A stretch of DNA of 64,000 nucleotides from Epibacterium ulvae (GTDB lineage Bacteria; Pseudomonadota; Alphaproteobacteria; Rhodobacterales; Rhodobacteraceae): NCBI RefSeq assembly GCF_900102795.1, contig NZ_FMWG01000007.1:124001-188000 (forward strand), written 5' to 3'. Positions 2 through 63,253 of the stretch are shown here, piece by piece. Below the pieces are notes generated by a model. That model saw only the letters and a program-made list of their open reading frames with translations. It had not been told where the DNA came from and did not search any database. A program made the position numbers and the translations under genes. Position 1 is the stretch's first letter; every line of letters starts with the position of its first letter.

Positions 2-661
2 CAACTGGTGGAAGGTCTGTCTTTTGATCTGCCCCCCGGTGGCATCGTCGGCGTAATCGGCCCCAACGGCGCGGGTAAATCCACCCTGTTCCGTATGCTG
101 ACCGGTCAGGAACAGCCGGATGAAGGCTCAGTCACCTATGGTGACACGGTGAAACTGTCTTATGTGGATCAGTCACGCGACGATCTGGATGACAATGAAA
201 CCGTCTGGGAGAGCATTTCCGGTGGCGCTGAAATCATCGAACTGGGCGACGCGCAGGTGAATTCCCGCGCCTATTGTTCGTCTTTCAACTTCAAAGGCGG
301 CGATCAGCAAAAACCACTGAAACTCCTGTCTGGTGGTGAGCGTAACCGCGTGCATATGGCACGCCTGCTGAAAGAGGGCGGCAACGTTCTCTTGCTCGAC
401 GAACCCACCAACGATCTGGACGTTGAAACCCTGCGCGCACTCGAAGACGCCTTGGTCGATTTCGCGGGCTGCGCGGTGGTGATTTCACACGATCGTTTCT
501 TCCTTGACCGGATCTGTACCCACATTCTGGCCTTTGAAGGTGACGCGCATGTGGAATGGTTTGAAGGCAACTTTGAAGACTACGAAGAAGATAAGAAACG
601 CCGTCTGGGCCCGGACGCTTTGGAGCCAAAGCGCCTTAAGCATAAGAAGTTCGCGCGGTAG
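2..661 (+). CDS. ettA: Energy-dependent translational throttle protein EttA (ABC-F), 3' part
   Basis: This is the C-terminal part of an ABC-F ATPase that acts on the ribosome and gates entry into elongation according to the ATP/ADP ratio. The frame is open to the left edge, so the first ABC domain and the arm/linker lie outside the window. Visible here is the second nucleotide-binding domain: Walker [10 protein letters not shown], signature LSGGERNR, Walker [12 protein letters not shown] and the switch histidine in VVISHDRFF. The tail contains [22 protein letters not shown], in the style typical of EttA. The GTG at position 8 is internal and is not the start. A strong terminator follows within 10 nt, so this gene ends its transcript. 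EttA rather than Uup or another ABC-F paralogue is judged from the tail sequence. Confidence 0.9.
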
Positions 662-669
662 CTAGGCAC

Positions 670-695
670 GGGGAGCACAAATGCTCCCCTTTTTT
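670..695 (+). terminator. Rho-independent terminator of ettA
   Basis: The perfect 8-bp stem GGGGAGCA / TGCTCCCC has a 4-nt loop and is followed at once by six T residues. Confidence 0.9.
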
Positions 696-721: not shown

Positions 722-1456
722 ATGAATTGGACTTGCCCATATTGTCATCATGCTCAGGTCGTCACTAAGGAGACCGCCGCAACAATTAATGAAGGCTTCA
801 CTACAATCAAAACTGATTTAGGCCATATAGGGCTATATGCCGAAGCGATCGTCTGCGCGAATCCCGATTGTAATAAAGCAACCGTTTCAGCTTCCATAGT
901 TGCAGGCCATTTTAGCCCTAGTACCCGCAAAGTTTACATTTCTCACAGTGACTTTCGCACTCACCACAAAATGCAATTGCTTCCAGAAAGCCTCGCGAAA
1001 CCTCAACCAGAGTACATCCCTCAGCCACTGCGCGAGGATTACATCGAAGCTTGCCGGATACGAGATTTGAGCCCTAAAGCATCTGCAACACTAGCCCGCA
1101 GGTGCCTTCAAGGTATGATCCGAGACTTTTGTGGCATCTCAGAAGGAACACTGTTCAAAGAGATCCAAGCGTTACACGAACGCGTTGTCGAGGGAAACGC
1201 ACCGAAGGGCGTGTCTGAAGATAGTGTCGAAGCAATCGATCATATTAGAAAGATTGGCAATATCGGTGCTCACATGGGAAAAGATATCAATGTCATCATA
1301 GATGTTGAACCCGAGGAGGCTCAAGTCCTGATTGAGTTGATCGAAACGCTATTTGATGAATGGTATGTCGCACGCCAAAAACGCGAAGACCGCATTGCGC
1401 GCGTGAAGGCAATCGCAGACGAAAAAGCCGGACAAAAGCTGATATCTCAGAGGTAA
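722..1456 (+). CDS. DUF4145 domain protein with N-terminal zinc ribbon
   Basis: This 244-aa protein begins with a likely zinc ribbon: C5-P-Y-C8 paired with C45-x4-C50. The rest resembles DUF4145, an alpha-helical domain found alone or fused to restriction endonuclease subunits. The hallmark stretch is around LARRCLQGMIRDFCG, followed by the IRKIGNIGAHMGKD segment. No catalytic motif is seen, and the cellular role of orphan DUF4145 proteins is not known. The start is supported by AGGAG about 6 nt upstream. Base composition is visibly more AT-rich than in ettA or the cold-shock gene. With the hairpin-dense stretch behind it, the gene looks like a small acquired insertion between two core genes. 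No phage or restriction partner is adjacent. Confidence 0.75.
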   Translation: MNWTCPYCHHAQVVTKETAATINEGFTTIKTDLGHIGLYAEAIVCANPDCNKATVSASIVAGHFSPSTRKVYISHSDFRTHHKMQLLPESLAKPQPEYIPQPLREDYIEACRIRDLSPKASATLARRCLQGMIRDFCGISEGTLFKEIQALHERVVEGNAPKGVSEDSVEAIDHIRKIGNIGAHMGKDINVIIDVEPEEAQVLIELIETLFDEWYVARQKREDRIARVKAIADEKAGQKLISQR

Positions 1457-1460
1457 CACA

Positions 1461-1710
1461 AGGCCCGTGCCTGACCTTGGGGAGGTGCAAATGCGCCTTT
1501 CCGGGGGGAAGGTTAGGTGCGGGCCGTGACACTGCGTGCCACATCCCAAGGGACCACCTTGCCAATGTTCCAAGTGTGGGAAGGTTGGCGCGTTTGGGCT
1601 CCGCCCGCCCACATCTCGAACAGTCCCCCGGACTGTTTGTCCCTTCGGGAGCCGATGTGAACTCCACGGGGGAAGCCCGGGCCACTTCGCGTCACGTCCT
1701 ACGGGACATC
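1461..1710. other. Hairpin-dense non-coding region (candidate structured RNA or repeat element)
   Basis: Several stems can be drawn by hand. A 17-bp stem (with G-U pairs) joins 1462-1478 to 1509-1525 and encloses a 10-bp hairpin at 1479-1502. An 11-bp stem with one mismatch joins 1561-1571 to 1579-1589. A three-way junction is closed by 1610-1615/1654-1659 and holds the hairpins 1619-1637 (AACAGTCC/GGACTGTT) and 1640-1650. A small hairpin lies at 1696-1707. The stretch 1527-1562 partly repeats at 1681-1714, which suggests a duplicated unit. ORFs crossing it have no recognisable domain. It matches no RNA family I know (not RNase P, tmRNA, 6S or SRP RNA), and transcription is not demonstrated. 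Confidence 0.45.
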
Positions 1711-2075
1711 CTGCAAACCGTGCTGAGTTCGCCTTATTCACGCTCTCACATGGCAAAACGTCATAAACACCGCCAACAGCCATCAGCGTGAATGGAAATA
1801 ATACACTCATCCATAGCGCGCGTCGGCCCCATTCAGTGGGACGCAGGTTTTCATTTGTGATGCGAAACACCACCACCGTTCCTTATCCGCCACAGAAGCA
1901 GGGAATGGTCGCACGGTTTTCCTTGCCCCAAAGAGAATCAACTGGCATAGATTTTCCTGCTACTGCTTCTATCGACGTTCTGTCTCCCCCACTGGGCGGC
2001 GTTCAGTCTTTCGATCAAGGCGAACGCCAGGCTGCCGCAGGAGCGCGGGCAGCGTTTACAGAATGGAGATCTCTC
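1711..2075 (+). promoter_or_regulatory. Long leader and promoter region of the cold-shock gene
   Basis: No gene is seen in the roughly 365 nt before the cold-shock gene. The upstream open frame lacks any domain. A GGCGTTC/GAACGCC hairpin lies near 1996-2028. A long structured 5' UTR is usual for cold-shock genes, where it controls translation with temperature. That role here is inferred from position only. Confidence 0.35.
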
Positions 2076-2282
2076 ATGCCTACAGGCACCGTAAAATGGT
2101 TCAACTCAACCAAAGGTTTCGGCTTTATCGCACCTGATGAAGGCGGAAAAGACGTTTTTGTACATATTTCTGCTGTTGAGCGCGCAGGCCTGACCGGTCT
2201 GGCCGACAACCAGAAAGTGACCTACGAACTGCGCGCTGGCCGTGATGGCCGCGAAAGTGCAGATCAGATTGAACTGGCCTAA
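2076..2282 (+). CDS. Cold-shock domain protein (CspA family)
   Basis: This 68-aa single-domain protein has both RNA-binding motifs: RNP1 as KGFGFIAP (residues 13-20) and RNP2 as VFVHISAV (residues 27-34). It begins [10 protein letters not shown], the classic cold-shock opening. Such proteins bind single-stranded RNA or DNA and melt structure in mRNA. The ATG at 2076 was chosen over longer in-frame starts because it matches the family length and has a GGAG motif about 9 nt upstream. It is a monocistronic gene with its own strong terminator. Which paralogue it is, and whether it is cold-induced, cannot be told from the sequence. Confidence 0.95.
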
Positions 2283-62983: not shown

Positions 62984-63253
62984 CTTTCGAGTGTTCTCAC
63001 CAGAACAAGAGCACCGCCGGGCCCCGGCACCTTGTCCATACGAGACAGTGGGGTTGGATCAATTCATGGCCGTCGTCCCGAATGGCGGCCTCCCGATCCT
63101 GCAAACCTCACCTTAGAAAAAACCCTTAACAAAAGGCCTTTACTGAGACAGGTTAGGCTGGACCTAGGGTTCCCTAGATCCAGCCAATAACTTGGGAGCA
63201 TTGCTACAACTTCTAAGCGAAATTGAAAGCGATATTTTCTCCCAAATAAGCGC
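62984..63253 (-). promoter_or_regulatory. rplL-rpoB spacer with a processing/attenuator hairpin
   Basis: In the rplL-rpoB spacer, the stem GGCTGGATCTAGGG / CCCTAGGTCCAGCC (one G-U, 63156-63185) has a tiny loop. A weaker stem CCTT/AAGG with T residues follows at about 63114-63136. In E. coli this spacer holds an attenuator and an RNase III site that set RNA polymerase synthesis below ribosomal protein synthesis. A similar role here is inference. Confidence 0.5.

Follow-up and report, generated by a model that had tools for sequence, protein, structure and literature searches.

A dispersed structured repeat of Rhodobacteraceae at the edge of one-gene, defence-like slots behind ettA and parE

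The stretch of DNA analysed here, a 64,000-nucleotide window from Epibacterium ulvae, opens on the 3′ part of ettA (8..661, + strand), for which NCBIfam EttA models match best. This core gene, which forms the left edge of the slot described below, is found at E ≤ 1.6e-135 in 17 of 18 genomes of the genus, the exception (G014) being a genome that is 67% complete. It is followed by a terminator-like hairpin with a T run (670..695, +), picked up by a pattern scan that returned two such sites against a shuffle mean of 1.8, and then by a gene of 47% GC (722..1456, +), hereafter cargo, whose 244-aa product is a DUF4145 protein (Pfam, E 6.6e-11) matched in PADLOC by PD-T7-4 (E 2.5e-12). The initial annotation had called this neighbour an AT-rich orphan; AT-rich it is, and the protein can now be given a family. 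None of the 17 other genomes of the genus contains a match to it at E ≤ 0.001. A structured element then begins at 1459 (not at 1461, as first proposed), and the right flank carries a cspA-like cold-shock gene (2076..2282, +; Pfam CSD). Homology of this flank to genomes G017 and G013 resumes at about 1958 (alignment with loci L097 and L104). Across the genus, the right flank of ettA is rearranged (L094–L110): of 17 genomes, three have cspA and the FMN dehydrogenase after ettA in the sequence fetched.

The element consists of two conserved modules within 1459–1659, a long hairpin accompanied by a second one and a three-way junction. Hairpin 1 (1459..1525, +) is 67 nt long and contains the 17 consecutive pairs that had been noticed initially (1462–1478 with 1509–1525, three of them G-U), an inner stem of 10 pairs (1479–1488 with 1493–1502) and a G-rich bulge on the 3′ side (1503–1508). 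Hairpin 2 (1526..1542, +) has 6 pairs and one mismatch. The other module, which has separate copies elsewhere, apart from hairpin 1, comprises a small hairpin (GGGC-TCC-GCCC, 1596..1606, +) and the junction itself (1610..1659, +), in which an outer stem (1610–1615 with 1654–1659) encloses hairpins at 1618–1638 and 1640–1650. Further right, at 1673..1715 (+), the right half of hairpin 1 and hairpin 2 can be read a second time in worn form, which upholds the suggestion of a duplicated unit, with the degenerate repeat now placed at 1509–1552 versus about 1673–1715. This repeat is too diverged to be detected by a repeat finder and was recognised because other loci repeat the right-half motif about 150–180 nt further on, with clearer second copies in L003, L029, L025, L027, L002 and L048.

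That this is a structured non-coding element, as proposed from the sequence, is borne out by folding: the + strand of 1461–1710 folds at −128.8 kcal/mol, whereas shuffled sequences average −105.4 (z −4.3), and none of 200 shuffles folds as well. Chance folding of GC-rich DNA could draw on the composition of the region and on the minus strand, which also folds below most shuffles (z −2.1), but in view of that z score and of the covariation found in both modules it is scarcely credible. No known RNA family had been recognised at the outset, and a covariance search against Rfam agrees, giving no match in 1300–2100 at E ≤ 10. The sole Rfam match in the window lies outside the element, a Rhodo-rpoB RNA (RF03074) at 63006–63099 on the minus strand (76.9 bits). 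A scan of 600–2100 for intrinsic terminators, that is, a hairpin followed by a T run, found no such site at the element.

The absence of covariation among homologues had been named as what would speak against the element; covariation is present in both modules. Of 43 candidate copies, 33 were used to align hairpins 1 and 2, the ten omitted having loops that are long or disrupted, or small indels: 91.9% of cells are paired, both sides have changed at 13 of 33 pairs, and covariation is 0.246, against 0.141 for shuffled (0/500 as high) and at most 0.088 for slid alignments. For the junction, which is confirmed as real, 28 of 29 distinct copies were used and the values are 93.2%, 13 of 23 pairs and 0.312, against 0.134 (0/500) and at most 0.061, while one measure, that of further pair types, is not above shuffles (188/500). 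For both modules, these shuffle counts are no probabilities, because the copies are related. Hairpin 2 has both-side changes at all six pairs, yet just 74.1% of its cells pair in the 33 copies; the small hairpin at 1596..1606 is 100% paired in 28 copies, which says little because it hardly varies. Since hairpin 1 read on the top strand holds 80 G-U cells against 8 A-C cells in the 33 copies, with similar ratios in both copy groups (50:5 and 30:3), the + strand is the folded one. In a variant seen in L132, L137, L143, L146, L038 and L014, five of them at parE and one at proS-perM, the hairpin has a long loop and a further sub-hairpin.

The window element belongs to a structured, dispersed repeat family of Rhodobacteraceae, where a search for homologous copies had been advised. 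Within the window, the hairpin model (R1) scores 89.3 bits at the element and 11.5 bits at the second-best place. A DNA search of 101 genomes (the window's own and relatives) found element matches in 15, with the modules also occurring apart from each other, and a family-wide DNA search with the hairpin part found matches in 24 of 394 genomes. With a covariance model built from the 33 copies, 197 of these 394 show one or more copies at E ≤ 1e-4, several genomes holding at least 9–11 copies (11 candidates were scored per genome). When GTDB genome contigs were searched for an exact 20-base match, 67 stretches were obtained, titled Rhodobacteraceae, Rhodobacterales or with the names of roseobacter genera. 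Among plasmids, 11 records have short matches; of three inspected, one is unannotated and two have the element between rfbB and rfbD (L021 and L022, from Phaeobacter), an annotated short ORF that overlaps the hairpin in L022 being possibly spurious. Phage records gave no element match, and three IMG/VR viral contigs (L299, L300, L301) have exact 17-base matches.

Forty dispersed copies, taken with about 2 kb of flank (one cut by a contig end) and with genes called by a longest-ORF rule, are REP-like in lying near gene ends: a sense stop lies no more than 50 nt away from 17 copies and an antisense stop from 16, two copies stand between divergent genes, and no sense bias was found among the 40. 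Such a dispersed, palindromic and strand-asymmetric element, with at least 11 copies counted in the richest genomes, could be a non-autonomous transposon or a REP, mobilised by a Y1 transposase of the RAYT/IS200 type, its association with cargo being secondary. Dispersed palindromes near gene 3′ ends are indeed what is found, but the transposase that accompanies REPs of the RAYT kind is not: Y1_Tnp occurs in just 4 of 40 genomes, namely 2 of 30 chosen as element-bearing and 2 of 10 others. A RAYT was therefore rejected, and Y1 mobility in general appears quite improbable.

What sets some copies apart is their left flank. In 19 loci that were picked by look for an AT-rich left side, the next gene on the left is ettA (8) or parE (11), in the same sense in 19 of 19, and GC is 44.9% on the left and 62.1% on the right (left lower in 19 of 19, p 1.3e-4). 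The name parE is given because topoisomerase/gyrase B models match, below their full-length cut-offs with a fragment as query, and because the genomes of the genus have a second, longer GyrB frame. A cargo gene lies between the core gene and the element in 18 of the 19 loci, on the same strand in 15 and on the opposite strand in 3, with two cargo genes in L027 (seen in L152); in the 19th (L017), about 230 nt separate the core gene from the element, with no gene. A 20th copy (L034) follows ettA without cargo. Because these loci had been picked by look, the test was repeated on the exact-match set, i.e. 76 distinct copies from the 67 named genome stretches and the three viral contigs. Fifteen of them, four already in the first set, have a sense ettA (13) or parE (2) upstream within 3.5 kb, all with an insert of 379–1712 nt and an AT-richer left side (45.6% GC left and 62.0% right, against 56.7% and 56.8% in 57 others). 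Without the old copies and the two viral ones, the 11 remaining ettA/parE copies, one of which (L239) has masked letters beside the element, stand at 46.1% and 61.1%, with the left AT-richer in 11 of 11, against 56.4% and 56.8% in 53 others (p 1.6e-6); in this reduced set, neither ettA nor parE has an antisense copy nearby. In the window, the slot lies immediately behind ettA, contains a single AT-rich gene resembling defence genes and has the element as its right-hand border. The parE loci are organised in the same way; at both core genes the cargo differs between genomes and sits between the core gene and the element, and the insert is 0.2–1.7 kb long and usually one gene.

Outside ettA and parE, the idea of a general landing pad on the left of the element was rejected, since AT-rich DNA favours neither side there. 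The mean GC step across the 40 dispersed copies is absent (59.4% left, 57.5% right, p 0.34), and copies AT-richer by more than 8 points number 7 on the left and 5 on the right of 54 in the exact-match set, and 1 and 6 of 40 in the fetched sample. AT-rich DNA to the right of a dispersed element is seen in L203, L209, L213, L215, L216, L224, L261, L264, L276, L286 and L292. On the left, AT-rich cargo is found near rplO in L253 and L244 (in L244, a half element separates two AT-rich genes and a full element follows the second), in the pheS-pheT gap at L243 (an AT-rich 159-aa gene plus element, named by eye), between murD and mraY (L250), beside alr (L249) and between proS and perM (L230), all of which may be background because the right side is equally often AT-rich. 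The names folD, cysS, rimO, sdaA, murD, mraY, rplO, pheS, pheT, alr, proS and perM are our reading of the translations and do not come from family searches. Between murD and mraY, cargo-bearing DNA of about 720 nt precedes the element in L250, and in another genus (L009) the element stands about 8 nt after the same conserved sequence. Twenty further murD-mraY regions gave element matches in G001 (the L009 site), G005 and G007, the best match in the last two adjoining mraY in the opposite orientation. The window's own genome has a 35% GC stretch upstream of murD without element match (L304, G000:C29).

The slots could also be explained from the transcript, the hairpin being kept as a 3′ UTR structure that stabilises or insulates mRNAs and adjoining cargo being selected for that. 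The many copies near gene ends, the G-U asymmetry that makes the + strand fold and the sense orientation of all 20 first-set copies at ettA and parE, L034 included, although these were found by looking left of the element, speak for it; the lack of sense bias among dispersed copies, the hairpin having no terminator-like site and the element not being found at any of six island-free parE loci speak against it, and overall we find it doubtful. An mRNA role is compatible with the exchange across borders discussed below, and both may coexist.

Filled and empty sites could be compared within the genus. Around ettA in 17 genomes, R1 matches strongly downstream in G000, G005, G016 and G007 (with about 230 nt and no gene in the last), the element is upstream of ettA in G017, and G001 has a weak antisense match (29.8 bits); the other 11 have no R1 match at E ≤ 1, with only about 1 kb downstream covered in G008. 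At parE, an AT-rich island, judged from GC bins, starts from the stop codon in 11 of 17 genomes, and an element or part of one is present at 9 of the 11 islands against 0 of 6 island-free sites (p 0.0023), or at 8 of 11 if only R1 matches at E ≤ 0.01 are counted (p 0.009). Two of the nine are weak, a disrupted element in G012 (22.7 bits) and a half element in G000 (13.4 bits, E 0.8). AT-rich stretches in which no element was detected occur at parE in G008 and G017, and at ettA in G009 and perhaps G006. In the window's own genome, the parE slot (L131, G000:C18) is filled by a 351-aa antisense frame with a weak PADLOC match to PDC-S42 (E 9.9e-6), followed by the half element.

The left edge of the slot is itself shared. 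Among genomes with an island, the final 37 nt of parE resemble each other more closely (+0.124 identity, p 0.0002) than do the preceding 347 nt (+0.021, p 0.033), and this is most marked over the last 18 nt (+0.153, p 0.0007). The last 18 nt of ettA show +0.098 (p 0.005) with five genomes counted as filled, among them G009, which has no element, and G007, which has no gene. These permutations ignore relatedness, and some segments further upstream of the core-gene ends also give p 0.004–0.05. Selection on cargo translation can explain part of the likeness, because GGAGG is present in the last 30 nt of parE at 11 of 11 island ends against 1 of 6 others, and several cargo genes have a start codon that overlaps or adjoins the stop of parE. 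The element sequences themselves do not cluster by locus (0.839 within ettA, 0.824 within parE and 0.818 between them). Classic island integration with a duplicated gene end was dropped: when the last 50 nt of parE were compared with up to 3 kb downstream in 17 genomes, nothing exceeded 40 shuffles except in G002, where the score (15.0 against 13.5) falls inside the cargo.

A gene followed by a hairpin invites another explanation, namely that gene and attC-like hairpin form a mobile unit, as in integron cassettes, inserted by an unknown recombinase at preferred sites beside core genes. Besides this anatomy, it would account for parE islands that begin at the stop codon of the core gene, for elements that go with islands and not with empty sites, for the variable hairpin loop, with long forms in G001, G002, G004 and G013, and for the succession of two AT-rich genes with a half and a full element in L244. 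The core motif of attC is RYYYAAC...GTTRRRY; the exact pair is absent from the window at the single spacing tried, and GTTRRRY at the right arm was read by eye in 1 of 33 rows, the window's own, where it is GTTAGGT. This lead to attC membership was dropped, since the motif is absent from the other 32 rows, none of the 18 genomes of the genus exceeds the cut-off of the integron integrase model (TIGR02249) and it is the top strand that folds, whereas attC is reported to fold on the bottom strand (PMC8191803). No conserved cargo start is apparent by eye either, and integron-like insertion seems unlikely.

The cargo genes differ from slot to slot, and many of them resemble anti-phage defence genes. 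Pfam or PADLOC assign RelA_SpoT/PDC-S33 to the cargo of L003, PDC-S33 to L137, TIR to L143 and L029 (the latter by PADLOC only), Fic/PDC-S23 to L028, Shedu to L032, HEPN to L027 and L146, GmrSD to L152, DUF4238 to L048 and DUF7946/7947 to L007, the remaining cargo proteins having weak or no matches. The likeness to defence genes depends on 7 PADLOC matches at 1e-6 among 18 cargo proteins, against 0 of 10 control genes from the window (p 0.03), a small control unmatched for orphan genes. The counts become 8 of 18 against 0 of 10 at 1e-5, and 9 of 18 against 2 of 10 at 1e-3 (p 0.23), the best control reaching E 1.1e-5. These 18 proteins include those of L142 (an island without element) and L230 (proS-perM), and leave out nine cargo genes of ettA/parE loci (L002, L005, L016, L018, L019, L025, L049, L052 and the GmrSD protein).

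Taken together, these observations support the initial reading in part and add what it had not foreseen: two separate modules, a dispersed REP-like family and an AT-rich gene as the usual partner behind ettA and parE. The explanation we favour, to which we give a little less than an even chance, is that the element is the hairpin border of a one-gene defence slot, in which cargo is exchanged between shared edges. Cargo would arrive, leave and be swapped by recombination at both edges, with the 3′ end of the core gene as left border and the hairpin as right border, probably on pieces of DNA from relatives that come in by natural uptake or in gene transfer agents, which are known in Rhodobacterales, and it may be expressed from the transcript of the core gene. 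Such border-directed exchange would explain the fixed sides, the variable centre and the shared edges at ettA and parE. It leaves unexplained how elements arrived at these sites, and we count against it that no junction between closely related strains was seen, that AT-rich DNA has no preferred side away from ettA and parE, that the element sequences do not cluster by locus, that three cargo genes lie on the opposite strand, that some AT-rich stretches go without a detected element and some elements without cargo, and that the PADLOC contrast weakens at 1e-3. A broader proposal, which must be regarded as speculative and probably goes too far, is that of a gene-cassette system without an integron, in which single defence genes are captured and exchanged between a core-gene end and a top-strand-folding hairpin that serves as recombination border; in this way roseobacters would swap immunity genes downstream of core genes like parE and ettA.

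If border-directed exchange holds true, (i) slots in which immune genes are carried singly could be pinpointed, across a large and mainly marine clade, by applying a short covariance model beside ettA and parE, (ii) this would be a direct route to defence genes, several cargo genes matching no known family and (iii) the exchange of genes between fixed borders, with no integron involved, could be put to the test at these slots. In the open PMC literature, among the matches listed, no title or abstract start describes the element or a defence slot at ettA or parE.

Several known systems nevertheless come close. Like REP and BIME elements of enterobacteria and RIME of rhizobia, the element is a dispersed palindromic intergenic repeat found near gene ends and in mosaics; it differs from them by its length of about 84 nt with a G-rich bulge and a second hairpin, and by the copies behind ettA and parE, which border defence-like cargo. 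Transcription is reported in 26 REP elements by a Sinorhizobium survey, which also cites RIME (PMC2873474). With integron cassettes and attC, the slot shares the order of one gene and then a hairpin with conserved stem and variable loop, beside a fixed site, but here no integrase is over cut-off in 18 genomes, the top strand folds, the core motif is in 1 of 33 rows and there is mostly one gene per site. Finally, the same core-gene neighbour next to variable cargo resembling defence genes is what characterises defence hot spots. In the core defence hot spots cDHS1 and cDHS2 of Pseudomonas aeruginosa (PMC10250203), fixed core genes likewise flank variable defence genes, over medians of 26 kb and 6 kb, whereas the slots behind ettA and parE span 0.2–1.7 kb, usually hold one gene and have a conserved hairpin at one edge.
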